Assembly: GCF_022024175.1 (NCBI RefSeq) | Contig: NZ_CP091794.1 | Coordinates: forward strand, 3,224,001-3,288,000 | Source: Prevotella communis | Lineage (GTDB): Bacteria; Bacteroidota; Bacteroidia; Bacteroidales; Bacteroidaceae | Direction of reading: 5' to 3' | Length of the DNA: 64,000 nt | In this document: one piece after another, positions 26,360 through 58,681 of the stretch | Layout of the letters: every line of letters begins with the position of its first letter | Numbering within the stretch: the stretch's first letter is position 1 | Notes under the pieces: model-generated | Seen by the model: the letters and a program-made list of their open reading frames with translations, nothing else | The model's database searches: none | Told to the model about the DNA's origin: nothing | Program-made: the position numbers and the translations under genes

Positions 26360-26428
26360 CCTTTTTAAATTTTGGGGTCTTGGGGTTGGACCCCAAGCGG
26401 ATCACAGGTATATTTTACTCTACAATGA

Positions 26429-26586
26429 TTTTTCAGGCTTGCAAAGCCGTTGTTTTTTCTTTCAGGTGTTTGTAATAACGCAGTTACGTGATAAGTGGTG
26501 TGGGCATGGCGTAAGAACTCGTTCTTAAAGACACGCCCACACCACTTAGCACAATGGCTCTGATAAGAGCTACAAACATTTGAAAG
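26429..26586 (+). repeat. Hairpin-rich structured element, copy 1
   Basis: On the plus strand an outer stem (26459-26474 with 26571-26586) encloses three hairpins: TAAC/GTTA (26476-26486), a long stem 26493-26505 with 26535-26547 capped by TAAGAA-CTCG-TTCTTA, and GCTCT/AGAGC (26557-26570). A small hairpin GGCTT/AAGCC (26436-26448) precedes it, and a T-rich tract (TTTTTTCTGTTTTTTTT) follows. Copy 2 keeps all stems with different bases. No open reading frame here looks genuine. It could be a structured RNA or a hairpin-type mobile element. Confidence 0.6.
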
Positions 26587-26632
26587 TGTTTTTTCTGTTT
26601 TTTTTCCAACCCTATTAATTTGTTCGATTTTG

Positions 26633-26743
26633 ATCAGATTTTGCTCGATTTCTGCCCGATAGGGCACTCCATCCATTTCTAGACCTTTAGGTCTTAACAA
26701 TTTTCTAAATTGATTTTCTTGAAATTTTGAGCCTTTTGGCGAC
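26633..26743. repeat. Dispersed element B, copy 1
   Basis: About 110-bp repeat shared with 40518-40680 and 43226-43381: GATTTTGCTCGATTTCTGCC, then hairpin GCCC-GATA-GGGC, then AGACCT-TT-AGGTCT, then TTTTCTAAATTGATTTTCTT and AATTTTGAGC...GCGACC. The two hairpins differ between copies by paired changes. Confidence 0.65.
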
Positions 26744-26753
26744 CATAACTTAC

Positions 26754-26817
26754 TCACGCTTTAGCGCGAGCCAATTAATGAAAAATTAATGTTCCAATTA
26801 TATGGCAATTACATGTT
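26754..26817. repeat. Dispersed element C, copy 1
   Basis: CACGCTTTAGCGCGAGC (hairpin CGCT/AGCG), then ATTAATGAAAAATTAAT (hairpin), then two direct CAATTAYATGG units. Related copies lie at 40445-40500 and 43980-44030; the CGCTTTAGCGCGAG part recurs at 40558-40574 and 43387-43402. Confidence 0.65.
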
Positions 26818-26860
26818 CACGAAAAGAATATCATTGCTGTTATGGTCGAGATAAACATGA

Positions 26861-27019
26861 TTTTTCAGGCTTTCCAAGCCGATGTTTTTGCTTTTCGTTG
26901 TTTGTAATAACGGTAGTTATTGCGATAAGTGGCATGGAGTGGGCATAAGAGCTCGCTCTTAAAGCCAAGTCCATACCACTTATCACTAGAGCTCTGCAGG
27001 AGCTTCAAACATCGAAAAG
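26861..27019 (+). repeat. Hairpin-rich structured element, copy 2
   Basis: Same architecture as copy 1: GGCTT/AAGCC (26868-26880); outer stem 26891-26904 with 27006-27019; TAAC/GTTA (26908-26919); long stem 26924-26938 with 26970-26984 capped by TAAGAG-CTCG-CTCTTA; AGCTC/GAGCT (26990-27004). It is followed by TTTCTGTTTTTTTCTG. The cap changes from AA/TT to AG/CT with pairing kept, and the outer stem changes from CTTTCA/TGAAAG to CTTTTCG/CGAAAAG. Confidence 0.6.
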
Positions 27020-27130
27020 GGTTATTTCTGTTTTTTTCTGATTCTGACAGGTACCGTCCCCTGTCATCCCCGCGAACCGACAAATCCAGCACTTCCTGAA
27101 ACTAATATTGTCTTCATGAAATCGTATTCG

Positions 27131-33815: not shown

Positions 33816-36800
33816 TTATATACTACTCAAAGCATCTTGCGCTTTCTTTACCAGCGTATCAAGCAACCTTTGGAATGGTTCTCCTTTCTCAAATACGGTT
33901 GCGCCCATATTGCTGCGATAATCAGAGATTTTAATTTGAACATCGTCTGATCTGTCATCAGCCTCGATTATTTCCTTCATCAATGGACGCAGCGTTTTTC
34001 CGATATCCATTTTTACATTAGTGCAGTCCAATATCACCTGTTGGGGTAAAATTGCAAGGTCTTCTTCCTTATGTTCTCGCAAATCAACGCAGCATAAACA
34101 GTACTTATCCGGATTCTGACATGCTTTCTTTACCTGATTAGGGCTCATATGAGCAGCCTCGTTAAAGTCCCATTTACTCTTAACCTCGATATAATAGATT
34201 TCTTCTAGTGTCTGGTCGTGCCTTTTCACACTGATCACTATGTCCTGACCGTTCTGTCTATTAGACGCATCCACATATTCATCCTTATCTTTTGGATAAA
34301 CAACTTGAACCACATCATTGTCAATAGCTTTAAGTAGAACTTCTTCAACATGTTCACCTATAGTCTGAAGGTGGGCGAAACGGGCTGCTATAACTCGCTC
34401 CTGCTTGATTTGCTTTTGAATCTTATCAATCAAATCTGACATTTTACCCTCCGCAGAGATGTTTGCAAGGTCTTGAAGTTCATTATCATCAAGGTCCATA
34501 AGGGCAAACAGACTTTTCTGGGCCTCACCACTCTTCATATTGAAAGTATATGTAGCCTTCTTCTCTTCAACATGACCAAACAATTCTTTCCAGTCTGTTC
34601 TTTCTCCCAGTTTCAGAATAATCTCTCGAAGTATCTTTGTAAAATGCTTCTCACCCTTTTCACTCATATCATTTTCCAGTGCCTCTTGTATCTTGCTGGC
34701 TATATCTTTGGACGTTAGAGCAGATAGTTCAAAATAAGGCGCTAATTCTTTGCAAATCCAATCATCAAGGAGATCTTTGTTATATATCGTCTTATAATAC
34801 CTCACAAACTCTTCTGGAACCCCATCATTTTTGCATAAATCCTTCTTCAAGCACAGCACATCATGCCAATTAGGTATTACACCATAAGTATCCAACTTAT
34901 CTACATATTCTTTATCTTTAATGACAGCATATTCCTTTAGGAAACCAACAACCCAATTTTTATTCAGGGCTACCCATTCCTTATCCTTCAGACTCAATTT
35001 CATCAGACTATAATCACGCATCAAGTTGAATGCAGCCGAATAGAAGTCATCCTCTTTTTCTTCTATTTTCTCCTGATACCTCTGTTTGAACTCTTTGTCG
35101 AACAAAGTTGGAATAAAATGCATCAAACGACCTCTGATATTTGTGAAATCAGTTTGAGATGTAGCAGAACAGAAATTGATGAGTGCGGTAAGCTTTTCAT
35201 CATCCAATACATTAGGTGTATTGGGGTTCATATACAAGCCTCTCCATCTCTGCATCGTACCTGTAATGGCATCATGCAGGTTCTTAGGAGTATATTCGGG
35301 CACCCCTTCTATAATGCTCAGGCATTCAGTATTAATCATCCTGCTGGCATCATCACCCATCACCACTTTCACGAGGCTATACACCTCATCAGTCATAAAG
35401 TCACCATGTCTCAAATCGCCCTTTTTCCTCAGACCTCCCTCTCGGTTAGGAATCAACGCGTGTTGGTTTACAAGCGATAGATTACCACTCGCTTTCAGAA
35501 ACTCTAGGAACGATTTCAAATCATCAGAATTCTCCTTGATAGTCTTACATACATCCTCTACCGTAATAAAGAACTCGCTATTCTTACCACAATCCCATTT
35601 ATCGATGGTTTCCGACCATTTTATAAGGTTCTCTGATGGCAATAAATATGCATTATTCTCATCATACATCACCTTACTAGCAAATGCTTTCAGTAATGGT
35701 TCATATTCCTTTCGCTCTTCATCTTTTAGCTTTGAGTAGAAATCAGGATGCAGCACTTTTACCCTTGGATCGGTGATGGCCTTGTTCCCTTCGGCAGTAG
35801 GTATAACCTTCCATTTCTGGATAGCCTCTTTCCACAGATTTTGCAAATCAATATAGAATTGTCTGGTCACCAAATCTTCCGCCTCCTGATTGAAATCCAC
35901 CTGACACATGGATATATCCAAATTGGCAGTATGATTATCATCGGCATAATACTTCAGCAATGCATTCATCATTTCTTTCAATATCGCCTCGTTCCTCTTT
36001 CCTTTCTCTATCTTTGAAGGGACATCTACAGGCAGAAGAATGCTGTTTCGTTTTTCTACCGGATAAAAACGACTGGAATGAAAAATGAAGTTAACACCAA
36101 ATTGCTCAGTACCTAGCAAATGGAACCATAAGAACAAACTTGGTATATCTTCTACACTACCACATGAAGCAGGATATGGTGGTAATAATATCTTGTCATT
36201 ACCATCTTCCGTCTCAAGACAGTAAATGGTCATTGGGGAATTATTCGGTTTTGTCTGATCATCTATTATTATTTGATACGAAGACAATTGCCATCCCTCG
36301 ATATTGTCTAATATCTTCAAAGAAGGACTAGGTATCTTTTTTACCTTTTGGTGTAGGTGGGCATAATCATCAATGATTTCCACCTCCTTGATTCGCTTGT
36401 TAATCAGCAGTACCATTGGCATTAATCGGATTGCCCTAGCCAGTTGTCCAGAAGCCTCCTGGTGACAACCATTAAGATTATAGGTAAAACTGGTCCACCT
36501 TTTCTCTTCGTCAAGAAATTCAAGTGAGGGGTAAAGGGGCTCCCGCTTATAGGCCTTGTTAACCGCCTTTATCTCTTCCCTCATCTCATTCTTCGCTTCT
36601 GTCATATCATCATCGCAAACACATGAGCGGTTAAGTGTGAAGTCCTCCAGCAGCACATATCCCTTAAGTTGTTCCTTGCTCACCATCACCTTATACGGAG
36701 CATCTATCGACACAATATTACAGAAAGCATGCGTAGTCATAAACCCAGTGCCATACTGACCTGCCAAATCTGCATTGGGGTTATCTTTCGAACTGTTTTG

Positions 36801-37076
36801 GTTGACCAACGCCAACAGTGATTGGAACTCAAAAGGCATACCACGATGAGCAAAAACGAGCTTATCATCTTTCAGTACGATTTTGATGGTACAATCTTCA
36901 TTCTCAGCCACGTCACGTGCATTCTGAGTTAATTCCCAGATTGCACGTTCTCCGCTATTCTCATCAAGGTTCTCGATACCCTGCTTTATCTTCTTGCAAT
37001 AACCAAGAAGTTCTTGCTCTTCCTTCACTTGTTCCTGATATAGCTCCTCAGGATCCTTCTGTATTTCTTGTTCCAT
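33816..37076 (-). CDS. Sacsin-like GHKL ATPase fused to a C-terminal PD-(D/E)xK nuclease
   Basis: 1086 residues. The N-terminal Bergerat ATP-binding fold has the N-box GERAIWELTQNARD, the G1-like FAHRGMPFEF and the G2 motif AGQYGTGFMTTH, as in sacsin/Hsp90-type proteins of defence loci. A long helical middle follows. Near the C-terminus GQDIVISVKRHD and YYIEVKSKW give the D...ExK arrangement of a PD-(D/E)xK (DUF3883/Mrr-like) nuclease. It lies 52 bp after a Hachiman-like helicase gene on the same strand. Probably an ATP-switched DNA-degrading defence effector; this role is inference from architecture and context. Confidence 0.75.
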   Translation of the reverse strand: MEQEIQKDPEELYQEQVKEEQELLGYCKKIKQGIENLDENSGERAIWELTQNARDVAENEDCTIKIVLKDDKLVFAHRGMPFEFQSLLALVNQNSSKDNPNADLAGQYGTGFMTTHAFCNIVSIDAPYKVMVSKEQLKGYVLLEDFTLNRSCVCDDDMTEAKNEMREEIKAVNKAYKREPLYPSLEFLDEEKRWTSFTYNLNGCHQEASGQLARAIRLMPMVLLINKRIKEVEIIDDYAHLHQKVKKIPSPSLKILDNIEGWQLSSYQIIIDDQTKPNNSPMTIYCLETEDGNDKILLPPYPASCGSVEDIPSLFLWFHLLGTEQFGVNFIFHSSRFYPVEKRNSILLPVDVPSKIEKGKRNEAILKEMMNALLKYYADDNHTANLDISMCQVDFNQEAEDLVTRQFYIDLQNLWKEAIQKWKVIPTAEGNKAITDPRVKVLHPDFYSKLKDEERKEYEPLLKAFASKVMYDENNAYLLPSENLIKWSETIDKWDCGKNSEFFITVEDVCKTIKENSDDLKSFLEFLKASGNLSLVNQHALIPNREGGLRKKGDLRHGDFMTDEVYSLVKVVMGDDASRMINTECLSIIEGVPEYTPKNLHDAITGTMQRWRGLYMNPNTPNVLDDEKLTALINFCSATSQTDFTNIRGRLMHFIPTLFDKEFKQRYQEKIEEKEDDFYSAAFNLMRDYSLMKLSLKDKEWVALNKNWVVGFLKEYAVIKDKEYVDKLDTYGVIPNWHDVLCLKKDLCKNDGVPEEFVRYYKTIYNKDLLDDWICKELAPYFELSALTSKDIASKIQEALENDMSEKGEKHFTKILREIILKLGERTDWKELFGHVEEKKATYTFNMKSGEAQKSLFALMDLDDNELQDLANISAEGKMSDLIDKIQKQIKQERVIAARFAHLQTIGEHVEEVLLKAIDNDVVQVVYPKDKDEYVDASNRQNGQDIVISVKRHDQTLEEIYYIEVKSKWDFNEAAHMSPNQVKKACQNPDKYCLCCVDLREHKEEDLAILPQQVILDCTNVKMDIGKTLRPLMKEIIEADDRSDDVQIKISDYRSNMGATVFEKGEPFQRLLDTLVKKAQDALSSI

Positions 37077-37128: not shown

Positions 37129-39465
37129 TTATTCGTTCAAATAGCGTTTCACAACCTCATATTTTTCTTCATCTTCAATCTCTGTACTGATATGATTGTT
37201 GAACACTATCTCCTCTTCACTAATCGAATCAATGCAAGGTTTAAGCCATTCTATGTCTTCAAATTCAAAGCCGTATTTTTGAAGCCATATTTCCATCTCG
37301 TCATCTGTGCCATAAGCAATGTAATTAGAAAAAGCGTTGGCTCTAACGTCACCTGTTTCCTCAAAATACAATTTGAATACTGCGCAAAGAGGGTCTTTCA
37401 GCGACAGGGAAATAACCTTATCAAGATAGTCATATGTGTCATATATCACCAGATCATACTCCAAGTTCAGCACACTTTCGTTCTTAAACAAAGTTACTGA
37501 CCTTGCTTTCATATTTGGCAATTGTTGCGCCTGACAAGAATATCGTGCTGTCAGCCCCAACAACTCCCTTTTAAAATCCTCTTCTGAAATCACTCCGTCT
37601 CTAAGTTGTTTCCTCAAAGCCCTTCTTTCATCTCTTCTTGAAATAAAAGAGTAGCGCAGCGAAACTATCTCTGCAAACGACTTCCCCTGTATCTTCCACA
37701 AGAGGATAGGTATGGCAGTACTCAGTATCGATTTCTCTGCTGTTGTCAGGTCGCGCCGCCTCAACTGCGATACATATATTTGCTGGAATGCATTCTTGAT
37801 TTGCTTCCTTATCGTATCGTCTATTTTATAATAGGCGGCGGCGGTGATTGGCTTCCCATTGAGCATCAGATAGTCGAGTATAAACTCTATCCATCCCTCG
37901 TTGTTCGAATCAACCAGCCTATCTACTTGGACTTGCGTCAAGTTCAGGTTGTCATTAAATGTGTCATTCACAATAGCATCTACCTCATCCTGATAATCGG
38001 CAGAATACTCTTCATTGTTTGAATCCAGCAGAGAGATGGTTGAAATATAAGATTTCTCATTAAACCTTTTCTTAAAAGAACCAAGACTTCCCGCTTCTAT
38101 CACAACATAGCCGTAGTCAAATTTGTCTTTCGCCTTTGACATCCTTCCAGCCCTGCCTATCAGGTTTTTCAAGTCAAGCGCTGCTTTGTTGGGGTTTCCG
38201 CTGAACCGATTATTATGTACCCAAACCAGGTCGAATGGCATATTAATACCCTGAATAAGTGTGGAGGTAGAGAAGCAGAGCTTTGCAAAACCCATATTCA
38301 CAAACTTCTCAATGATGAATCGGGCCTTCAATGGTATGGAGCCGTGATGAATCACGATACCCCGCTTCATATATTCCACCAGTTGTGATCTCTTCTTCGA
38401 GGTTGTGCCAAAATAGGTATTCATCTCATCAACCAGTTTCAGAGCCTCAGGGTTCTTTATTTCCCTGCAAAGTCTTATATATGGTTCAAACTCCCTTTCA
38501 ATAGCACTGTCATAGATGCTCGTTTTCGACACATAAAACAAGCACGAGCCTCCTCTCTTGATTACGTCAGAAACCACATCACCATGATACTCAGCTACTT
38601 CTCCATGATCCATATCGTATGGAGAGAAATAAAAGAACCTACCATTCTTGTGGGTTACAAACAGTTTCCCTACGGTATTCTGGTCATATTTCTTTGCGAC
38701 CCCTTCTCCTAGCTCGTTTTTTACTATCTGAGCTTCAGGATTCTCTATGAACGGGTGGGCAAACACCTTCTTTATTTGAGGATACCTCCTGTTGACACGT
38801 CTCACAAACGAATCAAACTTCATTCCTCGAATGCCATCTTCTGTCAATTGAGCCTCATCAAACAAGAAGAGTTGTACGTTTGTCTGGTCAATGTATTTAA
38901 ACAGTTCATTGCCACGTTCTGGAGTAATTACAAAGATTCTTTTTCTTGTATGTTTGGTGTTTACTATCTCTATGAATGGTAACACCAGTACGTCATTTCC
39001 AGTATTGCCGGCTATCTTGCCAATATACTCTGCTAGTAATGCTCTTGACGGGACAACAATAATAGCATCGCCATCAACACCATCAATTAGTTGCTGAAAC
39101 AGGAAAGACTTTCCTGTGCTCGTAGGTGCCGAGAATGAGAAAACAGCATTTTCCCTAATACACACAAAAGCATCCGACTGTATTGGAGTATATTTTTCTC
39201 CCAACACCTCTTCTATCGAAGCAGAAAAAAGACTGTAAACCAGCTCAAAGAGATTCTTAGGCTCACCAGTCTTGTAAAAAAGCCCCATGGTACTCAACAA
39301 AGTTGCCTCGTCACCATTAAGCATCTCGGGATGCAGGTCCTTGATTAAAGCAAGCGTCTCAAGGCTACTGCCGTCTACAGGTCCATCTGTGTGAATCCTG
39401 CTGATTATCTCCCTTATAACAGGGTGAAAATCATAACCATCTTCAAAGTATTCTGGTTTCAGCAT
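37129..39465 (-). CDS. SF2 DEAD/DEAH-type helicase, HamB-like
   Basis: 778-residue Ski2-like helicase. Walker A SAPTSTGKSFLF, motif Ia VVPSRALLAEY, Walker B LFLFDEAQL, then FSTSTLIQGINMPFD and the motif VI LIGRAGRMSKAKDKFDYGYV. The SAPTS-GKS wording and the order nuclease gene first, helicase second, match Hachiman/AbpAB-type anti-phage pairs, in which HamB scans DNA and releases the HamA nuclease. Its start overlaps the nuclease gene by 7 bp, indicating translational coupling. The C-terminal 200 residues are not recognised. Confidence 0.75.
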   Translation of the reverse strand: MLKPEYFEDGYDFHPVIREIISRIHTDGPVDGSSLETLALIKDLHPEMLNGDEATLLSTMGLFYKTGEPKNLFELVYSLFSASIEEVLGEKYTPIQSDAFVCIRENAVFSFSAPTSTGKSFLFQQLIDGVDGDAIIVVPSRALLAEYIGKIAGNTGNDVLVLPFIEIVNTKHTRKRIFVITPERGNELFKYIDQTNVQLFLFDEAQLTEDGIRGMKFDSFVRRVNRRYPQIKKVFAHPFIENPEAQIVKNELGEGVAKKYDQNTVGKLFVTHKNGRFFYFSPYDMDHGEVAEYHGDVVSDVIKRGGSCLFYVSKTSIYDSAIEREFEPYIRLCREIKNPEALKLVDEMNTYFGTTSKKRSQLVEYMKRGIVIHHGSIPLKARFIIEKFVNMGFAKLCFSTSTLIQGINMPFDLVWVHNNRFSGNPNKAALDLKNLIGRAGRMSKAKDKFDYGYVVIEAGSLGSFKKRFNEKSYISTISLLDSNNEEYSADYQDEVDAIVNDTFNDNLNLTQVQVDRLVDSNNEGWIEFILDYLMLNGKPITAAAYYKIDDTIRKQIKNAFQQIYVSQLRRRDLTTAEKSILSTAIPILLWKIQGKSFAEIVSLRYSFISRRDERRALRKQLRDGVISEEDFKRELLGLTARYSCQAQQLPNMKARSVTLFKNESVLNLEYDLVIYDTYDYLDKVISLSLKDPLCAVFKLYFEETGDVRANAFSNYIAYGTDDEMEIWLQKYGFEFEDIEWLKPCIDSISEEEIVFNNHISTEIEDEEKYEVVKRYLNE

Positions 39466-40256: not shown

Positions 40257-40444
40257 CTGATGCTTGTCTCGCCTGCCTTGGCATTGCTCAACTATTGATT
40301 ATTACTGACTTAGTTTTTCTGTGAAACAGGTACCCGTTCCCTTCAGGAAAAAATAGGCGCCTCACATCTTGTCTAGGCTGCAAGTCCTGACACATACAGA
40401 AGTGAGTGTTTTTCCTTGTTTTTTCAATCTCTCGCCATTTGGCG

Positions 40445-40733
40445 ACTCTATTAATGAGAATTAATGGTTCAATTACATGGTAATTATATGTTCAAAATGA
40501 TATTTGTATGATTTGATTAAATTTTGCTCGATTTCTGCCTCGTATGAGGCACTCCCCTCACGCTTTAGCGCGAGCATATCTGTGTCATCTGCGCCATCTG
40601 TGCGACCTCATCTATTTCTAGACCTTTAGGTCCCTACAATTTTCCAAATCGATTTTCTTAAAATTTTGAGCTCAGCGACCATAGTTACCATCCGTGCCAT
40701 CCGTGGTCAATTTCACCCTTCAGCCCTCAGCCT
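40445..40733. repeat. Repeat block between UpxY and HamA-like genes
   Basis: Contains element C copy 2 (40445-40500), element B copy 2 (about 40518-40680, with hairpin GCCTC-GTAT-GAGGC), the CGCTTTAGCGCGAG hairpin (40561-40574), ATCTGTGTCATCTGCGCCAT and CATCCGTGCCATCCGTGGTC units, and CAGCCCTCAGCCTTCAGACC just before the UpxY stop. No gene is seen in 40257-40733. Confidence 0.75.
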
Positions 40734-43225: not shown

Positions 43226-43402
43226 CGATTTGACCAGATTCTGCTTGATTTCTTGCGTCCCTTCGGTAGCAAGCGAGCAAAGCTCGAGCGCTGCCCGATA
43301 GGGCACTCCATCCATTTCCGGACCTTTAGGTCCTTATAATTTTCCTGATCGATTTTCTTAGAATTTTGAGCATCGCGACCCCTCTCACGCTTTAGCGCGA
43401 GC
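43226..43402. repeat. Dispersed element B, copy 3, with CGCTTTAGCG hairpin
   Basis: Same order as copy 1 (26633): hairpin GCCC-GATA-GGGC, then GGACCT-TT-AGGTCC, then GATCGATTTTCTTAGAATTT. A GAGCAAAGCTC hairpin is inserted near 43272. Nothing gene-like is seen in 43068-43462. Confidence 0.65.
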
Positions 43403-43466
43403 ATATCTGTGCCATCAGCGTAATCTGTGCGCCCTACTCTCTCCACGTGCCACAGTATAAACCAAG

Positions 43467-43491
43467 AAAAGCCAGCCCATCGGCTGACTTT
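43467..43491 (-). terminator. Terminator after HA protein 3
   Basis: Minus-strand stem 43482-43491 with 43468-43477 (AAAGTCAGCC/GGCTGGCTTT, one G-U pair) followed by TTCTTGG. A duplicate of the terminator at 32287-32320. Confidence 0.7.
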
Positions 43492-43499
43492 CCCCAATC

Positions 43500-43730
43500 C
43501 TATTCATACTGATTCTTCCGTTTATACTCCTCCATCATCTCCATCAGTCTCCCGAAAGCCTCCACCCTCTCAGGCCTCATCTTCCCCGCATTCATCACCT
43601 TCCTGTTCGCCTTCACCCAGTTCAGCATATCATGCTCCTCAATCCTATGCCGCGATGGGTTACGATGGTTGGTTTCAACAAACTCAACCACCTCCTTGTA
43701 CCGTAAGTTCCAACGTTCTTCCTGCGTCAT
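43500..43730 (-). CDS. Stand-alone helicase-associated (HA) domain protein 3
   Basis: 76 residues (MTQEERWNLRYKEVVEFVET ... MEEYKRKNQYE), nearly identical to the protein at 32326-32556, including the region beyond the stop codon and the terminator, so a segment of about 270 bp has been duplicated within this window. Single HA-type domain; function unknown. The gene stands alone among repeats, unlike its paralogue at the end of the defence operon. Confidence 0.68.
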   Translation of the reverse strand: MTQEERWNLRYKEVVEFVETNHRNPSRHRIEEHDMLNWVKANRKVMNAGKMRPERVEAFGRLMEMMEEYKRKNQYE

Positions 43731-43763
43731 ATCCGTTCTATCCGCACCATCAGCGTCGCTTTT

Positions 43764-43916
43764 GCTTAATTAATTACTTACTTATTTGCTTATTTACCCG
43801 CCCTTTTATCTGCCCTTTCACATACACTGATTTTCAGCAAGTTACAACCATTTCGCTTAATTAATTACTTACTTATTTGCTTATTTATCTGCCCTTTTAT
43901 CTGCCCTTTCACGTAC
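43764..43916. repeat. Two direct repeats of about 61 bp
   Basis: GCTTAATTAATTACTTACTT at 43764 and again at 43855, each running on through TTTGCTTATTTA and CCCTTTTATCTGCCCTTTCA; period 91 bp. No gene is seen here. Confidence 0.8.
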
Positions 43917-43979
43917 TATTTCTCCCTTCTTTTTGAGTTCTTGCAGTCCAATGGCTAGAGACCTTTGGTCGCTTGGCTA

Positions 43980-44030
43980 GTCCAAGAATTAATGAAAAAT
44001 TAATGTTCCAATTACATGGCCATTACATGG
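43980..44030. repeat. Dispersed element C, copy 3
   Basis: ATTAATGAAAAATTAATGTT followed by CCAATTACATGGCCATTACA; matches 26770-26817. Confidence 0.7.
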
Positions 44031-45951: not shown

Positions 45952-45971
45952 CGCGTCAAAAGAAAAAACTC

Positions 45972-46859
45972 ATGCCCAGACAGCCACGCAAACCATCAAG
46001 CACCGCTGGGTAAAGGATAAAGGTTAAAGGTTAAAGATATGTTTTCGTTCGAAAATTTAAGAGTTTATCAAATGGCAAGACAGTTGGTAAAGGATGTTTA
46101 CCTACTGCAGAACCAGTTTCCTAAAGAGGAACGCTATGCACTGGGGGACCAAGTTCGGCGTGCAGCCACTTCTATTACGGCCAACATAGCAGAGGGCAGT
46201 GGCAGGCAATCACCCAAAGAGAAGGTACATTTCATTGAAATTGCTTTTGGCTCAATGACAGAGGTGTTCTGCGAACTGCAGACGGCAAGTGACCTTGGCT
46301 ATATTCAAACAGAGCAACTTGAAGCATTACGCCCTCAATTTACCGAGGTTGCTAAGATGCTATCAGGCTTGCGTAAGTCTTTAACCGTTAACCCATAACC
46401 GTTAACCGTTACGAAGCCACCCTACTCCGCTACATTCATCAGAACCCCGTCAAGGCAGGCATCGTAGAACACGTCAAAGACTATGAGTACAGTTCCTGGT
46501 CCGAGTATGACGGAAGCGTAGATTCAGTCTTTCAGATTTGCAATACGCAAACAGTGCTGAATCGTATTCCCTTTACCGAACTTGAAGCCTGGGTAAACGA
46601 GCCTCTACCCGAAGACGTCTATTGCCTGGATATTGAAGGCAGCTCTCGCTGCAGGCCCTCAGACGATCAGATTTGGAAACTTATTATAGAGAAAACTGGT
46701 GTTACTAATAACAGTGCCTTTCAACAGTTGGACAACAACACCAAGCAACAAGTCTTTCTCGAACTAAAAGATTGCGGCGCCTCCTTGCGACAACTGGAGC
46801 GACTCACCGGCATAGGCAAAGGAGTCATCCACCGTATCTGGAATTCAGGGAAACTCTGA
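45972..46859 (+). pseudogene. REP-associated tyrosine transposase (RAYT/TnpA-REP), interrupted
   Basis: The ATG at 45972 reads MPRQPRKPSSTAG, a RAYT N-terminus, and then a stop. After the embedded gene (46039-46398), frame-matched coding resumes at 46413 with LLRYIHQNPVKAGIVEHVKD and EYSSWSEY, the conserved C-terminal part of Y1-type transposases, and ends with a helix-turn-helix (SLRQLERLTGIGKGVIHRIW). The central part with the HUH motif and catalytic tyrosine is gone. The junctions carry AAAGGTTAAAGG (left) and TAACCGTTAACC (right) repeats. RAYTs move REP palindromes; a REP-like tail follows. Confidence 0.85.
46039..46398 (+). CDS. Four-helix-bundle protein embedded in the RAYT pseudogene
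   Basis: 119 residues of the S23/IVS family: FENLRVYQMARQLVKDVYLL, the family core VRRAATSITANIAEGSGR and FIEIAFGSMTEVFCELQTA. It occupies the place of the lost centre of the RAYT gene and is read in the same direction from the RAYT promoter. Related proteins lie at 29224 and 48354. Function of solo members is unknown. Confidence 0.88.
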   Translation: MFSFENLRVYQMARQLVKDVYLLQNQFPKEERYALGDQVRRAATSITANIAEGSGRQSPKEKVHFIEIAFGSMTEVFCELQTASDLGYIQTEQLEALRPQFTEVAKMLSGLRKSLTVNP

Positions 46860-46959
46860 TGTAGATTTACGTCCTTCATTTTATCAAATCAGGCCACTTT
46901 AAGCAGTTCGACTTGCATCCTCATGCCACCGCGAGACGCTGACCTGTCCCCCCTGTCCT
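46860..46959 (+). repeat. REP-like tail, unit 1
   Basis: About 100 bp following the RAYT stop: TAGATTTACGTCCTTCATTT ... CACTTTAAGCAGTTCGACTT ... CCACCGCGAGACGCTGACCT, ending GTCCCCCCTGTCCT. Repeated almost exactly at 47455-47553 and 47883-47983. Confidence 0.85.
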
Positions 46960-47043
46960 CAGAACCGACGAACGAAGCAAGCGCAGAGCCAAGCTCGCTT
47001 GAGCTATGCCTTGCAAGGAGGAGGAAGACGATAGTCAATCCCA

Positions 47044-47454
47044 GTCAAGGCAGGCATTGTTGAACATGTCAAAGACTATGAGTATAGTTCCTGGTCTGAA
47101 TATGACGGAAGCGTAGATTCAGTCTTTCAGATTTGCAATACGCAGACAGTGCTGAATCGTATTCCCTTTACCGAACTTGAAGCCTGGGTAAACGAGCCTC
47201 TACCCGAAGACGTCTATTGCCTGGATATTGAAGGCAACTCTCGCCGCAGGCCCTCAGACGATCAGATTTGGAAACTTATTATAGAGAAAACTGGTGTTAC
47301 TAATAACAGTGCCTTTCAACAGTTGGACAACAACACCAAGCAACAAGTCTTTCTCGAACTAAAAGATTGCGGCGCCTCCTTGCGACAACTGGAACGACTC
47401 ACCGGCATAGGTAAGGGAGTCATCCACCGTATCTGGAACTCAGATAAACTCTGA
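47044..47454 (+). pseudogene. RAYT C-terminal fragment, unit 2
   Basis: In-frame from 47044 (VKAGIVEHVKDYEYSSWSEY) to the stop at 47454; differs from unit 1 by a handful of bases (for example GNSRRR for GSSRCR). No start codon context; not an independent gene. Confidence 0.85.
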
Positions 47455-47553
47455 TGTAGATTTACGTCCTTCATTTTATCAAATCAGGCCACTTTAAGCA
47501 GTTCGACTTGCATCCTCATGCCACCGCGAGACGCTGACCTGTCCCCCCTGTCC
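47455..47553 (+). repeat. REP-like tail, unit 2
   Basis: Same tail as unit 1. It breaks off at GTCCCCCCTGTCCTT and is joined directly to the inside of the next RAYT fragment. Confidence 0.85.
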
Positions 47554-47882
47554 TTCAGATTTGCAATACGCAGACAGTGCTGAATCGTATTCCATTTACA
47601 GAACTTGAAGCCATCGTAAACGAGCCTCTACCCGAAGACGTCTATTGCCTGGATATTGAAGGCAGCTCTCGCCGCAGGCCCTCAGACGATCAGATTTGGA
47701 AACTTATTATAGAGAAAACTGGTGTTACTAATAACAGTGCCTTTCAACAGTTGGACAACAACACCAAGCAACAAGTCTTTCTCGAACTAAAAGATTGCGG
47801 CGCCTCCTTGCGACAACTGGAGCGACTCACTGGCATAGGCAAAGGAGTCATCCACCGTATCTGGAACTCAGGGAAACTATGA
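47554..47882 (+). pseudogene. RAYT C-terminal fragment, unit 3
   Basis: Begins within the coding region at QICNTQTVLNRIPF and runs to the stop at 47882; one substitution (AIVNE for AWVNE) against unit 2. Shorter than unit 2 at its 5' side. Confidence 0.85.
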
Positions 47883-47983
47883 TGTAGATTTACGTCCTTC
47901 ATTTTATCAAATCAGGCTACTTTAAGCAGTTCGACTTGCATCCTCATGCCACCGCGAGACGCTGACCTGTCCCCCCTGTCCTT
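47883..47983 (+). repeat. REP-like tail, unit 3
   Basis: Third copy of the tail. Its end CTGACCTGTCCCCCCTGTCC abuts the broken YaaC-like gene. Confidence 0.85.
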
Positions 47984-48322
47984 AATATTACCTCTTAAGT
48001 TTTGTCGTGGAGAACTCACACCATGCCCTATTTTTACTACATTCTTACCATTTATTGCTAGTAATGCTTTTGTCGCATTCATTATGCAATAATAGGCAGT
48101 TAATGGTTTCGCCTCAATAGGCAATTTCAGAGAGGCTTCATAGAAATACTTCGCTTGTTTCCATAAAAACGAAGCATCCTTAAACTTTTTTCCAGACTGA
48201 CTTTTCAACCACAGACTAACGTATTCAAAGGAAGAGTTAGACAACACAGTTCTATACCCATATTGTGGTGCAATATGAGGTTTCATCAACTTTATTGTCT
48301 TATTTTCAACTTTTAGTTGCAT
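47984..48322 (-). pseudogene. YaaC-like gene truncated by the REP array
   Basis: The frame from the ATG at 48322 reads like the N-terminal third of YaaC-family proteins: FLWKQAKYFYEASLKLPIEA, KPLTAYYCIMNATKALLAI and a following HGVS motif. At 47984 it runs into the REP-like tail and continues meaninglessly (KDRGDRSASRGGM) to a stop at 47912. YaaC proteins are usually more than 250 residues, so the 3' part is lost. Function of the family is unknown. Confidence 0.65.
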
Positions 48323-49330: not shown

Positions 49331-49562
49331 CGAACTTTACTGGCACCTCCGCCTCAGCGAATATCAAGGCTCTGGTATTGCCGTTATCAATGCTGCCATA
49401 CAAAAATTCCCCGAATGCAAAGACGCATTCGAGGAACTGTTAACTCTCCAAGACTACAACAGCCTTACCGATATGAACTTAAGTGATTCTCCTTTTGTCA
49501 AGATGGCTTTGGAGTCGCAACATAAAACACATCCTTCTCCTTCTGCACAAAGCGATCTTTAA
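49331..49562 (+). pseudogene. Possible gene fragment
   Basis: A plus-strand frame reads ELYWHLRLSEYQGSGIAVIN and AAIQKFPECKDAFEELLTLQ, which looks like genuine protein sequence, but it emerges from CAGCCTTCAGACATC repeats without a start and overlaps the end of the convergent STAND gene. The spacer before it (49190-49330) contains CATCAGCCATCATACATCC repeats only. No family recognised. Confidence 0.3.
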
Positions 49563-52500
49563 CTGTCGGCACCGTATCTGGTAACTTTTCATTCACCATC
49601 CTTCTCTCATACAGATGATGGCGTAACTTGCCATGGAACTTTGACAGGATCATATCAACTACATCTTTTCTCAAATAGAAGAACTGATCCGTCTCATTGA
49701 TATAATGAACGGATACCATCTCTCCATTTAATAGATACTCCATCGAATCAATATCTAGTTCCAAGCCTACTGCCTGAGAGATTTCTTGATTCAGCAGATA
49801 TACAGTAGGATACTTGAATCTCTCTTGGCTCCAGCTAGAATAGCAATAACGCGAAAGCAACTCTGGTAGTACATGCTCGTCAGAATATTCTTCTTCTGAT
49901 TCTAAATGTCTCCAACCCATCTCACCAAAGTATCCATGATGCAAATCAAGTTCTTCATACAAGTCCATACGTGAAGTTTTTTTCTCACTTATGTCTGCAG
50001 GTATCAACTGACTAATGCCCGACATATAGATATTACTGTATTTTTCATCTATTCTTTGTTCTAAATAACCTCTCATCAACACCCAATCCTCTCGACTCTT
50101 GGGCAGCTTTGTTATAAATAACTTTTCCATCAGCCCGATGTCAGAAGTCTTGCTCCACGCTGGCAATTGACTTACATCCCTTACAAGCAGACTTTGGCTT
50201 ACAAAAGTCTTCATTACTTTGAGTTTGGGACACGTCGGGTCTATATCCAAAATATCAGAGCGGAAAGTCGATTTATACTCTCCCTTCATCTTGCCGTTTA
50301 ACATCAACCAGCCATATAGTTCCATAGTAACATACCTACCAAGCTTCTCTCCATAGCTAATACGGTATTCATAGCGATAATTAACGGTCTCATTCTCCTT
50401 CTTCTGTATTTCTGCGTAGACATCTTCATCATATCCATAGTCAAGGCATCTTTTAAGCAACATGCCATGCACCTCTTCCGACGTTAATACTGGTTTCCTC
50501 CTCCATCCATATTCTATCAACGGTCTTATATGGTACTTCTCAAAATCATAATCATATAGTGCATAGAGTCTGTACTCATCTGTAGGTATAATAGGCCATT
50601 CCTCATCCTTGTTCTTCGTCAATATACTCCTATCAAATGTTATTCCTAGGCACTTTTCCCCATAGCTAAAAAGCGTTTCCAGACCATCAAGCAAGAATAC
50701 AGGTGATGAGGTAGATTTTTCCAAATAGCACTTCAGGTAGGTAACACACTGGATCAAGATATCTTTCTCTTTAACTCTTAAGCCGATACCCACTATCACT
50801 GATACAACAGCCTCAATGATGTAAGGATCCTTATTCTTAAGCCCCTCTCCACATATCGGCAATCCTTTTTCTATATCAGATAGCACCATGAAGAATAGTT
50901 CTTCAAAGAATTTGTTTCTAAACTCCCTGTCAACAATCCCGCACAGCAACAATGCCAAAACTATCTTATCCTCTACATCATAGCGGTCCGCCCAATATTT
51001 GTCTCGGAAAATGGAAAGTGTATGGGCCAGTATTCCGTAACCGGCAAATTTGCAATTCCATAACGAGTCCATCTCTCCAATATTCATATCATTAAAGAAC
51101 GGCAAGAACAGTTTCAAATGCAGGAGATTACATTGATGATATGTTCTGTCATACAGCCTATTGCACATTCTTTCCTTGGCATCCTTACCTTTCAGTCCGC
51201 ACGCTATCAGTTTTGCAAAAGCCATTCTTCCCTTTTCTTCAAAGGCTATAATATCCAAATGATCCATGGCAGCAATAACTATTTCGTTTCGTGGCATAAG
51301 TTCAAACCACTCTTGACCATATCTCATTGGAACTAAATAGAAAAGGCTCTTAATTATATCTTCTGCTAAAGTATGGCGATTCTCGCCAAAGAATCTGTCA
51401 TACCCGTCATCAACAAACTGGCAAAACTCATCCTTATCTCTATACTTATCCACAAATGCCTTAGCAATATGATAACCTGCCACTAAGTCATATGAGAATT
51501 GGATTCTTTGTTCACCACCCACATTGTCGATCATAAAGCACATACCCTCATTAAGGAAAGCCTCTGTCTGGTCTCCGATAATCGATGCGAAATCATCAAA
51601 GAAATTCAAGCTCCGGTCTCCCCTTTCCCATATCATAATGGCCACTTTATTGAGTGCCTCTTCCAGTTTATGCTGTAATAATCGGTTAGGCTTCCCATTA
51701 ATTGTGGCAATACTCTTTACCAGCTGCTCACTATAATCTTTCATGCAGGTAGCCAGTGTATGGTCGTTCACGTCAAATTTGCCTCTACCTCGATTTGTCA
51801 CACAGAATATCTTCAACAAAAGCGGATTTGTAAACAAGCTATGCGCAGAAAGTGTATTGGGGGTTATACGGTACTTCCTGAAATATTTTGCTACTGCCAC
51901 CATCAGATTTTTACGTTCTATGCCAGGCAGTAGTATGGGGTTTTCAGTTTTATCTATACTGTTGCAGCCATATATTTCATTTAAGTATTCTGTCTTTTCT
52001 CTACAGGTCGTAATCAGTATCAAGTTATTCCTTTCTCTTATTTTTCTTCTTAATGGCGGCAACTCCTCTCTCCATCTTTTCTCATTTGGTGCTGCTTCAT
52101 TCAGTCCGTCTATCACTATTGGGAGTTTGCACTGATATAGTTCTCCGAGGTAATCTAACACGTCAAGTGTATCGTTAATAGTACTTCCTGTAGGTAATTG
52201 CAGTAACTCTATCAATTTCGATTCGCATCCATCGCAATACCTGAACTTCGACCCTGTCAATAGTATTACTGGTAGTTCTCGGCTAACCATACTTGTTGCT
52301 ACAGAACAAGCAAAGTGGGTTTTACCATGGCCTGCCTCAGCAAACACAGAGATATCTCTAATCGACATCCTGTTCAGAATATCAAGAACACTTACATTGT
52401 CATCGTTTCGTCCTTTGGTAAGAATACTCTCCAAACGGTTAATTCTCTCAACCATTTGGTTGACGCCATAGTCTATTGAACCTAAATCCTTGTTCTTCGC

Positions 52501-53445
52501 ATACAATTCCTTTAGCTCTTTATTCAGCAAATCTACCCGATTGGCTCTCTTTTCGGCATACTCACTTATCAGTTGTCTAACCGGTTCTGCATTCTCCAAG
52601 ATTTTGTCGTCCTTAGTATATGCCTTTATTTGTTCTACTACATGGTATCTATCTTCAAAATCTTCTGTGTATGCCTGTTTAAATACATCAGTCAGTTTGG
52701 GATATAACCATCCATCTTCTATAAATAGCGGTTCTTTTTTATCTTCTTCAACACGACTTACCAGCGAGTCAATCTTTTCTTGAAGCAAGTTCTTCGCCTT
52801 CTTGTTATCTACAATTACAAGAAGTGAATCCTCAAAGGTTGTTGGGGTGTGCAGATCTAAGTCAAATTTCTCCTTAAGCACCTCTAATACATCCTTTGTT
52901 ATCTCATAAAGTTGCTGTAACCCGACATATTCGCCAAAGTAATACTGGAAAATTCCATTAAACGTATTTACATCATCTAAATAGTATCCATGGAATGTTG
53001 CTCGATGCCAACTCTCAAAGTTACAGTCATTTTTATTCCCTTTGAGTTGTGTCAGCAACTTCTCCCACTGATCTTCCACAAAACTACCTGGCGTACATAC
53101 TATCCATAATTTAGTATTGGGTTGCCGTCTTAATGTTGTCTTAAAGCCTTTAACTAACTCGTCAATATGATCTGCTCCAAGGGGCGAATTATCCTCATCA
53201 CGTGCTCCCTGCCAATATTTTGCCTGCCATCCTATGACATCTCCTTTTCGGTATTTTACACCCCCATGTTTCATGGGCGTATTCAACTCGACATAGAACT
53301 CCGAACCTGGTGTGTTATAGAAATAGCTTACTGTTCCATATTGTCCAAAAATTCTTCGGGCAATATGAAAACAGAACTCCTCGAAGTTCTTCTTTCTATC
53401 TCCGGACAGTTGGTCTAATTTCCCCCAATCTATTCTAATGTTCAT
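49498..53445 (-). CDS. STAND NTPase with N-terminal Mrr-like nuclease (Avs-like)
   Basis: 1315 residues. N-terminus: PD-(D/E)xK/Mrr-like nuclease, FEEFCFHIARRIFG, GSEFYVEL and the catalytic-type GWQAKYW (residues 72-78). A coiled coil spans about 295-345. NACHT/STAND core: Walker A VFAEAGHGKTHF (368-379), Walker B LPIVIDGLNEAAP (441-453), then LILITTCREKTEY. The C-terminal 700 residues are helical and form the presumed sensor. This is the architecture of Avs-type anti-phage NTPases that recognise phage proteins and then degrade DNA (family knowledge). It overlaps the radical SAM gene by 11 bp and is the last gene of the long operon. Confidence 0.8.
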   Translation of the reverse strand: MNIRIDWGKLDQLSGDRKKNFEEFCFHIARRIFGQYGTVSYFYNTPGSEFYVELNTPMKHGGVKYRKGDVIGWQAKYWQGARDEDNSPLGADHIDELVKGFKTTLRRQPNTKLWIVCTPGSFVEDQWEKLLTQLKGNKNDCNFESWHRATFHGYYLDDVNTFNGIFQYYFGEYVGLQQLYEITKDVLEVLKEKFDLDLHTPTTFEDSLLVIVDNKKAKNLLQEKIDSLVSRVEEDKKEPLFIEDGWLYPKLTDVFKQAYTEDFEDRYHVVEQIKAYTKDDKILENAEPVRQLISEYAEKRANRVDLLNKELKELYAKNKDLGSIDYGVNQMVERINRLESILTKGRNDDNVSVLDILNRMSIRDISVFAEAGHGKTHFACSVATSMVSRELPVILLTGSKFRYCDGCESKLIELLQLPTGSTINDTLDVLDYLGELYQCKLPIVIDGLNEAAPNEKRWREELPPLRRKIRERNNLILITTCREKTEYLNEIYGCNSIDKTENPILLPGIERKNLMVAVAKYFRKYRITPNTLSAHSLFTNPLLLKIFCVTNRGRGKFDVNDHTLATCMKDYSEQLVKSIATINGKPNRLLQHKLEEALNKVAIMIWERGDRSLNFFDDFASIIGDQTEAFLNEGMCFMIDNVGGEQRIQFSYDLVAGYHIAKAFVDKYRDKDEFCQFVDDGYDRFFGENRHTLAEDIIKSLFYLVPMRYGQEWFELMPRNEIVIAAMDHLDIIAFEEKGRMAFAKLIACGLKGKDAKERMCNRLYDRTYHQCNLLHLKLFLPFFNDMNIGEMDSLWNCKFAGYGILAHTLSIFRDKYWADRYDVEDKIVLALLLCGIVDREFRNKFFEELFFMVLSDIEKGLPICGEGLKNKDPYIIEAVVSVIVGIGLRVKEKDILIQCVTYLKCYLEKSTSSPVFLLDGLETLFSYGEKCLGITFDRSILTKNKDEEWPIIPTDEYRLYALYDYDFEKYHIRPLIEYGWRRKPVLTSEEVHGMLLKRCLDYGYDEDVYAEIQKKENETVNYRYEYRISYGEKLGRYVTMELYGWLMLNGKMKGEYKSTFRSDILDIDPTCPKLKVMKTFVSQSLLVRDVSQLPAWSKTSDIGLMEKLFITKLPKSREDWVLMRGYLEQRIDEKYSNIYMSGISQLIPADISEKKTSRMDLYEELDLHHGYFGEMGWRHLESEEEYSDEHVLPELLSRYCYSSWSQERFKYPTVYLLNQEISQAVGLELDIDSMEYLLNGEMVSVHYINETDQFFYLRKDVVDMILSKFHGKLRHHLYERRMVNEKLPDTVPTVKDRFVQKEKDVFYVATPKPS

Positions 53446-54886: not shown

Positions 54887-57800
54887 TCACTCCTCTTCAT
54901 CATTCAGCGTCCAATTACTGTTTGGCAGTCTACCGGGAAGCATAATGCTCTCCTCAAATTTCTTGGACCGATCTCTACAATTCTGTAAATGCCTTATTTC
55001 TAGTTCAGCCCACGAACTAACATCTCGGTTTTGATGCTTCGTCAGTGGCTCAATCAATTTCACCCTACTATCATAAATCGTCACTGGGCCTGCAAAAGTA
55101 CCAAGTTTGTCGCTTAATGCAGTCCGCACCATTTTATCGCTCCCATAATCATCAATGAGGCTCAGCACTGGTTCCGACAAGCCATTATCCCCTAATAGTG
55201 GTGCCAGTGCCATCAGCCTATATGGTCCAACTTCAACATGTTGCCTACACCACTCCATAAGTTTAGGAAGGTTTTCATTTCGGAATATTATAGCGGGGAA
55301 TTGGTTGCGAATACTGCTAAACCCAAAAATAAAGTAAAACTTCACAAAGTTCCTCTCATCTTCTTCCGCCGACATCAGGCTGGACATTTCAAGCCATGCT
55401 ATATCAAAATATTTATCAAACAACACCTGTAAAGCCCTCTCAACCTCATATTTTACAGAAGTCTCGCCCGATGTTATGATGTAGTTAAAAATCCCTTTTG
55501 CAACCACTTTGGCCAAATCTTCCCTTCTATTGTTCGAAAGTAGTGTTATTACAATGTGCGAATAGTGATTGTTCGAGATAAGGGTTGATACAGCATCTGC
55601 CCGTATTATCATTTCGCTTTCAAATAGGCTGTCCAGCTCTGGATGTTTTTCATATCCGCCCAGATACTGCGACATAACCATATGAAGAACCATCTCAAAT
55701 GAATCTGGCAGTTTCAAAACCCTTTCAAGGAAACCTACTGCCTCTGGTGTTGAAAGTCTATCTATCCTCGAAAAGCTCCAGAACGTAATAAAGTAGTCTT
55801 TGGCAACTACTCCCTGCTCAACCAACTCAAATAGTCTGTCCATATAGGGATGGTCAAAGGGATAGTTCCTGATGGCTATTAGCGAGAATAGCAGCCACTG
55901 CTTTCCTTTTTCATATGTCAGAAGAACAATCTTGGCAAACACATCTTCATCCACTTCTTTAACGTAATAGACAAATATGCTGTTCGCCCTTCCTTCCAGA
56001 ACATCTATTGATTCTGATGCAAATTGTATTTGTTCCTCTGGTGTATTAAGTGTCGCTAGTTTCGTGGCAAAGGCTTGCGGAAGAAAAGTCAGGCTGTTAT
56101 ATATACCTTTCAGTGTTTCAGAGTCATATAGTTTCTTTTCTGCCATTTCCTCTGCCAGTGCTTCGTATTTCTCATCTACCACCTTGCGGTGCTCATCTTC
56201 CGACATTCCCCAATAGTCATTACTCTCATAATTCTCCACTCTGGCAAAACGTGACACAAAATCATTTTTTGTCAAAGCATTAATCAACTTCTCTATCCTT
56301 TGTAGGTGCTGTTCATTGTTTTGAGTCTCTTCATCTCTTCTTGCATAATGAAGCACCTTCAACAAATCGTCCCATTGATAATTTAGCATAGCTGCCACCT
56401 TTTCCACTCTTGGCATGATAATGTCAAACATATCAAAAGAATTCAAGGCTCGGAAGTTCGTAGCCAGCATTTTTATACACTCTTCCTTATAAAGGGTATC
56501 ACCATCTATTTCCTGTTCCAACAAATCCAAACATCCCTTAATATATTCTTCATCCTCCCCTTCATTACGGGGTTCGTAGAATGGGTATTTCTGTTTTCCA
56601 ATCGTCACTTCGCCTCCATAGTGTATAAAGTCTGTTGTCCGAAGTGCCCTGTCTATAGATTTCATTATAACAGGTTTCGTCTCCACGCTATTATATTCAG
56701 ATCTTAAGAAAGACAACCTATCTGCCAACGATACAGAAGTCGATGGCAAACGGACTGGGAACAGAGAGGAAAACTGTCCCGTAGCGTTGTTTGACACATG
56801 CTCCACTTCCGAGCACCCTAACAGCAACAAGAGCTTAGCAGCTTTTGAAAATGTTTCGGGTTTATAGCATAACTTTGTAAGTGTCCATACTATCTCCCTG
56901 CGCCCTTCTCTTAGTTTCTTTAACTCTTCTAAACCTAATACGCATAACGACTCGTATAGGCTATCACATATTGCGTCCGGTACAATTTCTACGAGTGAAC
57001 GATATATTTTTGATCCTACTCTGGTGTTAATTATTTCTTTTTGGGTTAATAATCTTCCCGGCTTCAGCATTTCCTCGAACAACCCTTTTACTCTGTTGTT
57101 GCCCTCTAAGTTGCTTATCATTTCGAAGAAAGGCGGTATTAAGTTGCCTGCCATTCCAACTTTCCCAAGCGTTAAAATAATATTCTCCAACTGCGTAGCA
57201 CTGCACTTTGCAAACCATTCATTCGTCAGTAGCCTGGTTATCGCTGGCGAGCGAAAACGAACATACACGCCAACTCGTTGCATCAGTCTGCGTTCAAGAT
57301 ACTGCCTTATCAAGTTATCGAACTTATTAATAATTACAGTATCATCGCCATTCAGCCCTGTTATGTTTTTATTACGTGCAATTACTTCTATCTCTTTATG
57401 AGCATCGCCTTCATATCCAAGGTTCGAAAACAAGGATAGCGTTTCGGCAATTATCCTCTCGTCGCTCCCTTCATATGCTGAAAGAAGGTTTGCAATTAGT
57501 TTTTCATTATTAAAATCACGTATATCTCCACTCTTTATCACACCATCTATTGCCTGCACTGCCATATACGGATTCCCGCTGGCAAGCTCCTTTATTTGGA
57601 CACTTACTTCATCTTGTTTACCATAGAGGTTTGCTATGATAGCATCTACCACGTCTTCGTATGCGCATTCAAATATGGAAACATAGTAATCAGTGTCTAT
57701 CCTCTTTTCTGCGACATCCTCAAAAATTGCATATACTCTATTCTTGGCATTTTTCCGTTTGTAAGTCTTCAAAATCTTCTCAAACAGGTTATTGTCACAA

Positions 57801-58681
57801 TTATCAAGAATTAGGATAGCAGATATTTGCTTTTCAAAAATACTTGTGGTAGTTTTAACGACTCGGTCATTTGATGCGAGGAGGCAGTCACAATACAACT
57901 TTGGAACTTCCGTTGTTTCTGCAAGGATTGTTTCAAGGACAAGTCTTGTTTTACCAACGCCATTCAAACCAAGTATCCTCAGTATACCATTATTATCAGA
58001 GATTGCTTGCTTAATGTTTATAAGGTTCTCGTTAAAAATAAATTTCTTCTGAAACCCTAATTCTTCTGCCACCTGTTCACAATCTTCATACGGCAAGAAT
58101 TCTTCATGGATATGCTTCAGGGCTGCCTTTGCTGACTTACGGATTGCCCCCTTAAGGTCATCTACCAGCTCTTTTTCGACTTTCTCTAAATTTGGAGCAT
58201 TGTTGGCAGTTAAACAAAAGGTAATAGGCCTACGTTTATGGCGTATATCTATCGGACGCAAATAATCGTTCTTGCTAACATTACCAAAAACGGTATTGGC
58301 GACATGAATCACCTGCTTAGAATCTAAATGTCCATCTGCCCTGCCCAGCTCATACATCACGTTCTCGTTGGGGCGCTCTCTTAAATCAGGTTTTTGGTTA
58401 ACCCATTTCTGTATATTGTTGAACTTCTTATCCACAGAAATATCCGCAATAAAGATGTGACACTCGTCATTTCTTTTTAGACAAGTAGCTATCATATCAG
58501 GAGTTCCAGGTTCCCCTCCAGTTCCTTGCTTGACTTCAAAGACAACATCTTTTAGGTCTCCTTTCCCCTGTATCTCATTAACAGCCTTGTTAATACACGA
58601 CAAAATAAACTCTTTATTATTGAGTTTATCAGTCTTTGATGACGACTGCCAAGAGAAAAAAATCTTCAATACGTTTTTCAT
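54887..58681 (-). CDS. STAND NTPase with N-terminal TIR-like effector domain
   Basis: 1264 residues. N-terminus: IFFSWQSSS (residues 8-14 region), GTGGEPGTPDMI and PNENVMYELGRADG (Glu111), the TIR-like 'SWQSD...PNPNVxxELG' domain that in related defence proteins cleaves NAD or nucleotides. P-loop core: Walker A GLNGVGKTRLV (238-248), Walker B AILILDNCD (288-296). The following 900 residues are helical and repeat-like, the presumed sensor. It is 6 bp after the DUF1848 gene and 22 bp before the FVTNSSS gene. TIR-STAND proteins act in abortive anti-phage defence (family knowledge); the trigger here is unknown. Confidence 0.78.
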   Translation of the reverse strand: MKNVLKIFFSWQSSSKTDKLNNKEFILSCINKAVNEIQGKGDLKDVVFEVKQGTGGEPGTPDMIATCLKRNDECHIFIADISVDKKFNNIQKWVNQKPDLRERPNENVMYELGRADGHLDSKQVIHVANTVFGNVSKNDYLRPIDIRHKRRPITFCLTANNAPNLEKVEKELVDDLKGAIRKSAKAALKHIHEEFLPYEDCEQVAEELGFQKKFIFNENLINIKQAISDNNGILRILGLNGVGKTRLVLETILAETTEVPKLYCDCLLASNDRVVKTTTSIFEKQISAILILDNCDNNLFEKILKTYKRKNAKNRVYAIFEDVAEKRIDTDYYVSIFECAYEDVVDAIIANLYGKQDEVSVQIKELASGNPYMAVQAIDGVIKSGDIRDFNNEKLIANLLSAYEGSDERIIAETLSLFSNLGYEGDAHKEIEVIARNKNITGLNGDDTVIINKFDNLIRQYLERRLMQRVGVYVRFRSPAITRLLTNEWFAKCSATQLENIILTLGKVGMAGNLIPPFFEMISNLEGNNRVKGLFEEMLKPGRLLTQKEIINTRVGSKIYRSLVEIVPDAICDSLYESLCVLGLEELKKLREGRREIVWTLTKLCYKPETFSKAAKLLLLLGCSEVEHVSNNATGQFSSLFPVRLPSTSVSLADRLSFLRSEYNSVETKPVIMKSIDRALRTTDFIHYGGEVTIGKQKYPFYEPRNEGEDEEYIKGCLDLLEQEIDGDTLYKEECIKMLATNFRALNSFDMFDIIMPRVEKVAAMLNYQWDDLLKVLHYARRDEETQNNEQHLQRIEKLINALTKNDFVSRFARVENYESNDYWGMSEDEHRKVVDEKYEALAEEMAEKKLYDSETLKGIYNSLTFLPQAFATKLATLNTPEEQIQFASESIDVLEGRANSIFVYYVKEVDEDVFAKIVLLTYEKGKQWLLFSLIAIRNYPFDHPYMDRLFELVEQGVVAKDYFITFWSFSRIDRLSTPEAVGFLERVLKLPDSFEMVLHMVMSQYLGGYEKHPELDSLFESEMIIRADAVSTLISNNHYSHIVITLLSNNRREDLAKVVAKGIFNYIITSGETSVKYEVERALQVLFDKYFDIAWLEMSSLMSAEEDERNFVKFYFIFGFSSIRNQFPAIIFRNENLPKLMEWCRQHVEVGPYRLMALAPLLGDNGLSEPVLSLIDDYGSDKMVRTALSDKLGTFAGPVTIYDSRVKLIEPLTKHQNRDVSSWAELEIRHLQNCRDRSKKFEESIMLPGRLPNSNWTLNDEEE

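Follow-up and report, generated by a model that had tools for sequence, protein, structure and literature searches.

Two folded units in the window

The window (the whole 64,000-nt stretch analyzed) contained two copies of a folded element on its plus strand, c1 and c2, with cores at 26459-26604 and 26891-27037, where the initial annotation had placed them. As it had claimed, the plus strand of both formed an outer stem around three hairpins, with minimum free energies of -66.2 kcal/mol for c1 (z = -6.9) and -64.8 kcal/mol for c2 (z = -6.7), and no dinucleotide shuffle of either was equally stable. The differences it had singled out were also found, each with pairing kept: TAAGAA/TTCTTA to TAAGAG/CTCTTA in the cap, CTTTCA/TGAAAG to CTTTTCG/CGAAAAG in the outer stem, and GCTCT/AGAGC to AGCTC/GAGCT in the last hairpin. 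Over ~180 nt the copies were 79% identical, while their flanks matched at the random level.

The unit was longer than first noted, with an extra small hairpin and its own T-tract on the left of each copy (26436-26448 in c1; 26868-26880 in c2). The complete c1 (26425-26605) comprised four T-tracts, the small hairpin and a cloverleaf. Its inner small hairpin, GGCTTGCAAAGCC, assigned from sequence, fold and the same position in relatives, was followed by GTTGTTTTTT. The cloverleaf (26459-26586) was closed by pairing of 26459-26474 with 26571-26586 and enclosed a first hairpin, TAAC-GCA-GTTA (26476-26486), a long central hairpin with a CTCG-capped tip (26488-26552), and a third hairpin formed by the GCTCT/AGAGC pairing (26557-26570). 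The outer T-tracts, TGTTTTTTCTGTTTTTTTT (26587-26605), formed the tip of the element, which was conserved in relatives. The corresponding parts of c2 (26857-27038) were the small hairpin GGCTTTCCAAGCC, assigned from sequence and fold, a cloverleaf at 26891-27019 with three hairpins inside an outer stem of 26891-26906 with 27004-27019, and the outer T-tracts GGTTATTTCTGTTTTTTTC at the tip (27020-27038).

Further copies and distribution in the genus

Three more copies were present in the same genome: c3 (genome position 3295281), c4 (3290435) and c5 (2905803), the last on the minus strand and truncated on the left. The c2 and c3 sequences (c3 at 3295281-3295462) were 95% identical, with flank identities of 0.57 and 0.46, which are random or nearly so (random mean, 0.49; maximum, 0.55). 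When 398 genomes of the genus were searched with a covariance model built from the five copies of this genome only, 43 of them, or about 1 in 9, contained the fold, frequently as several copies. Up to seven candidates were scored in each genome, a ceiling that several genomes reached, and the copy counts per genome are lower bounds; a few of the matches listed repeat another match as its reverse complement. A regular-expression descriptor of the fold was abandoned after recovering just 52 of the 126 ends already known.

The family is uncatalogued. Rfam gave no match in the window, and its sole match at the cloverleaf loci was a 6S-Bacteroidales RNA lying outside the element; this RNA (L150, 1577-1756) adjoins the cloverleaf element there. 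No relatives of the element were found in viral contigs, and no paper describing it was found in the literature searched, mostly outside subscription papers.

Covariation of paired positions

Among the five genomic copies, 8 pairs had changes on both sides, a count that was reached in 0 of 500 shuffles, and slid partners gave 0 to 3. When 69 ends were aligned to the model, two-sided change was observed at all 51 of 51 pairs, amounting to 767 two-sided cells compared with 202 in shuffles and 113 to 174 in slid structures (covariation score, 0.583 versus 0.178); fitting the alignment to the structure inflates the pairing percentages, but the slid and shuffled controls were far lower. In a MAFFT alignment made from sequence only (mean identity, 63%), the outer stem was still largely recovered and the central hairpin in part, along with the third hairpin. 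The covariation looked for in a larger alignment was therefore present, and selection on structure, which the initial annotation had taken to be implied by two copies, is strongly supported by the five-copy and 69-end data together. The set provides a large, clean case of structure selection in bacterial noncoding mobile DNA.

Two-ended architecture

In other genomes, neighboring ends were arranged predominantly facing outward (42 pairs, compared with 4 convergent and 5 in the same direction). Two end types with a common architecture were distinguished, A, which is near the window copies, and B, which is more diverged. Each contained four T-tracts of the GTTTTT type in the order T-tract, small hairpin, T-tract, three-hairpin cloverleaf, and two T-tracts, the cloverleaf being a four-way-junction fold of ~128 nt. 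For the divergent B ends, RNAalifold gave no consensus fold from a plain MAFFT alignment, but single-sequence folds showed the same architecture. Both tips were GGGTTTTTnnGGTTTTTGT or a near variant in nearly all of 49 composite elements, so that the outermost tract pair forms terminal inverted repeats; the element tips are GGTTTTTGT tips. Total length was usually 340 to 560 bp, and most elements carried no genes; these short gene-free members are presumably non-autonomous derivatives. Nearly all composites were intergenic, many of them no more than 60 bp from the end of a gene, and 24 of 38 insertions lay between codirectional genes.

No B end was detected near c1 to c5. The best reading of the window copies is that they are solitary A-type (right-hand) ends of a two-ended mobile element, a state that is probably the product of decay or partial movement. 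In the REPIN literature (PMC3116915), repeat units that stand alone count as remnants, and by analogy the solitary window ends may be remnants as well. Since the window genome lacked both B ends near the copies and the main clade of nuclease genes described below, local mobility today is doubtful.

Nuclease-family genes between the ends

Five of the six end pairs with spacers longer than 550 nt enclosed a gene of the PF13366 family (PDDEXK_3, "GxxExxY"), which belongs to the PD-(D/E)XK nucleases. Searching with one cargo protein defined a main clade of relatives with at least ~54% identity, and all 19 of its loci had at least one cloverleaf end, with outward ends on both sides in 14, as detected by a model derived from the window genome alone. 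At one of these 14 (L221), a whole short element lay on either side of the gene. As a control, 33 loci with other PF13366 genes yielded 2 weak cloverleaf matches, and an association with PF13366 genes at large was rejected on this basis. The clade and the fold occurred together in 18 of the 398 genomes, with ~3.5 expected (Fisher p = 1.7e-11); the test is inflated by shared ancestry, but the physical linkage of gene and ends is independent of it.

The active-site pattern D...ExK was invariant in 26 aligned proteins, and the nuclease profile matched no solved structure. GxxExxY proteins were present in 41 of 60 sampled genomes, and a text search for the name returned no paper whose title or abstract concerned mobility. 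The case for the nuclease as the mover of the element is one of guilt by association.

In a sister clade (~50% identity), the genes were flanked by simpler A-tract/T-tract inverted repeats without a cloverleaf and mostly lay between two genes that we take, from reading the sequence, to be iorA-like and iorB-like. GxxExxY genes occupied one same iorA-like/iorB-like position in many species (L235 to L239 and L241 to L243). Because the sister-clade ends have no cloverleaves, not all elements of this kind need the fold; the array of T-tracts is probably the older feature, common to both clades.

Evidence for mobility

Copies from the same genome were 70 to 93% identical inside the element and ~50% identical, the random level, outside it. 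An empty site was also found: the gene-bearing insertion at L121 was present in two genomes (G122 and G217) and absent in a third (G280), in which the flanking genes nearly abut. The G280 site differs by a further ~30 to 40 nt besides the element, so the junction position is approximate. Target-site duplications showed no excess at 4 nt or longer except for one 8-nt case, and 3-nt flank repeats showed a weak excess (8 versus 2.6 expected).

Mobility of the family is well supported, whereas we infer the moving enzyme and the acting form, DNA or RNA. Of the two options in the initial annotation, structured RNA and an element that moves in the form of folded single-stranded DNA, the mobile element is the better fit, given the dispersed copies with random flanks, the paired inverted ends, the inverted-repeat tips, the cargo genes and the empty site. 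Single-stranded DNA may be the moving form, and the fold may have a role as RNA.

Strand preference and the form in which the ends act

The outward strand folded better than its complement in 77 of 84 A ends and 40 of 42 B ends, and this held after shuffle correction. On that strand, non-Watson-Crick cells favored G-U over A-C (109 to 32, per-helix counts) and G-A over U-C (242 to 7). The two ends thus prefer opposite strands, and one transcript cannot hold both in the preferred sense. This favors folded DNA ends, or two divergent RNAs, over one RNA.

These data bear directly on the alternative that the ends are structured RNA, in which an insert resembling an intervening sequence would fold at its ends within a transcript and be processed, terminated or insulated, leaving the neighboring genes unharmed. 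The strong covariation, the G-U pairs and the conserved G-A mismatches are what such an RNA would display, and the insertions lie tight between genes that are codirectional in 24 of 38 cases. The sister clade sits within the iorA-iorB pair, with inverted flanks like the inverted-repeat stem of the 23S rRNA intervening sequence (IVS) (PMC4990558). A read-through transcript, however, would have just one of the opposite-strand ends in its preferred sense, and an Rfam match to the element is absent. We regard an RNA element as unlikely.

The window copies are probably the right-hand ends of a two-ended family of cloverleaf mobile DNA, the full-length members of which carry a PD-(D/E)XK-family gene. 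Among the steps that movement of such a family could involve, the best supported is that the outward strand of each end, folded as DNA, would be what is recognized. Second in support, the element nuclease or a partner enzyme might recognize the folded junction or the T-tracts and then cut. The least supported step is that the short forms and solo ends would be moved in trans or would be leftovers. A more specific mechanism is put forward tentatively, as possible but doubtful: the four-way-junction ends, folded on their outward strands, would be recognized and processed by the element-encoded PD-(D/E)XK enzyme acting as a junction-type nuclease, with the gene-free derivatives moved in trans and no DDE or HUH enzyme involved. 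If the nuclease is the mover, this would be a transposition mechanism beyond the known enzyme classes. One PF13366 clade is now tied to defined, folded, mobile ends, and its function thereby becomes testable.

Comparison with known mobile systems

Like bacterial MITEs, the element is short and dispersed and has terminal inverted repeats. It could accordingly be taken for an ordinary MITE of a DDE transposase, with palindromes in the terminal repeats folding by chance, and the short gene-free copies and intergenic sites would suit this explanation. Nevertheless, both of its ends form very large folds that covary, and no target-site duplication of the usual length was found. Covariation at all 51 pairs over very divergent sequences would be unexpected for palindromes that fold by chance, even if palindrome self-correction could add some, and this origin appears improbable.

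IS200/IS605 elements have ends that are not inverted repeats and that require an HUH enzyme. The element resembles them and their non-autonomous derivatives in its folded subterminal hairpins, its strand preference and the failure to find a target-site duplication, but no HUH enzyme was found between the ends of the fetched composites.

The possibility of a REPIN-like repeat mobilized by a RAYT (HUH tyrosine transposase) was raised by c3, which lies ~60 bp upstream of a gene matching Pfam Y1_Tnp (RAYT-like), and by the same arrangement in another genome (G141), where the element lies between two divergent RAYTs. The ends resemble GTAR-hairpin units set in inverted orientation, and the RAYT protein adjacent to c3 has the YIHQNP motif of class 2.6, a Bacteroidetes class reported with atypical flanking secondary structures (PMC6006769). 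Co-occurrence of RAYT and the fold across genomes was weak (p = 0.02). In REPINs, a GTAG-type tetranucleotide marks the foot of a 6- to 13-bp hairpin; GTAA/GTAG-like feet were present in the window-genome copies and lost in many relatives, the outer-stem sequence being free to vary. Outside the window genome the fold adjoined a RAYT at just 1 of 65 loci, the G141 locus that matches the c3 site, and a general partnership was rejected because of this rarity. RAYT homologues had other short palindromes upstream, of the GGGACAGGT/GAACCGTCCC type, and no RAYT match lay between the ends of the fetched composites, making mobilization by a RAYT very improbable.

REPIN/RAYT systems (PMC3116915) are similar to the element in being short, dispersed, intergenic and noncoding, with two inverted folded units and compensatory changes. 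The 42 divergent pairs correspond to the two inverted units, although the units of the element differ in kind: each end is a ~128-nt cloverleaf with four T-tracts, the spacer is large and variable, copies per genome are few, and the linked gene is of the PD-(D/E)XK family, not a RAYT. The 23S rRNA IVS with S23p (PMC4990558) is likewise similar in its length of ~430 bp, complementary termini, small open reading frame and suspected mobility. The composites analyzed here, in contrast, lie between protein genes outside rRNA, the reading frame of the element is PF13366, and the two ends fold separately, on opposite strands, instead of pairing with one another. We file the element as structured mobile DNA outside the MITE, REPIN and 23S IVS families, since the tested features (target duplication, RAYT partner and rRNA location, respectively) fail.

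Neighboring RAYT remnants, repeats and defense-like genes

Directly after c2, the sequence CTGACAGGTACCGTCCCCTGTCATC at 27042-27066 is similar to the short palindromes that relatives carry upstream of their RAYT genes. A broken RAYT region at 45958-47990 consisted of a 5' RAYT fragment, a 23S_rRNA_IVP (S23) gene (46039-46398) with flanking repeats of the GGTTAAAGG type, and three 3' RAYT fragments in tandem, all of which end in the same GACCTGTCCCCCCTGTCC flank.

Defense-like genes were clustered at 25756-58678 of the window and at L012, including a TmtA-like gene (33816-37076), a HamB-like helicase (37129-39465), an Avs2-like gene (49498-53445) and a PD-Lambda-4-like gene (54887-58681); c1, c3 and c4 lie directly upstream of defense-like genes. 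Mosaic intergenic repeats made up of AATTAATG blocks, GATTTCTGCCCGATAGGGCACTCC, GACCTTTAGGTC and TTTTGAGCC..GGCGACC hairpins occurred in varying combinations, with or without the cloverleaf, at 26600-26820, 40410-40690 and 43230-44030 of the window and at genome positions 3361434-3376328 and 2914283-2914663.
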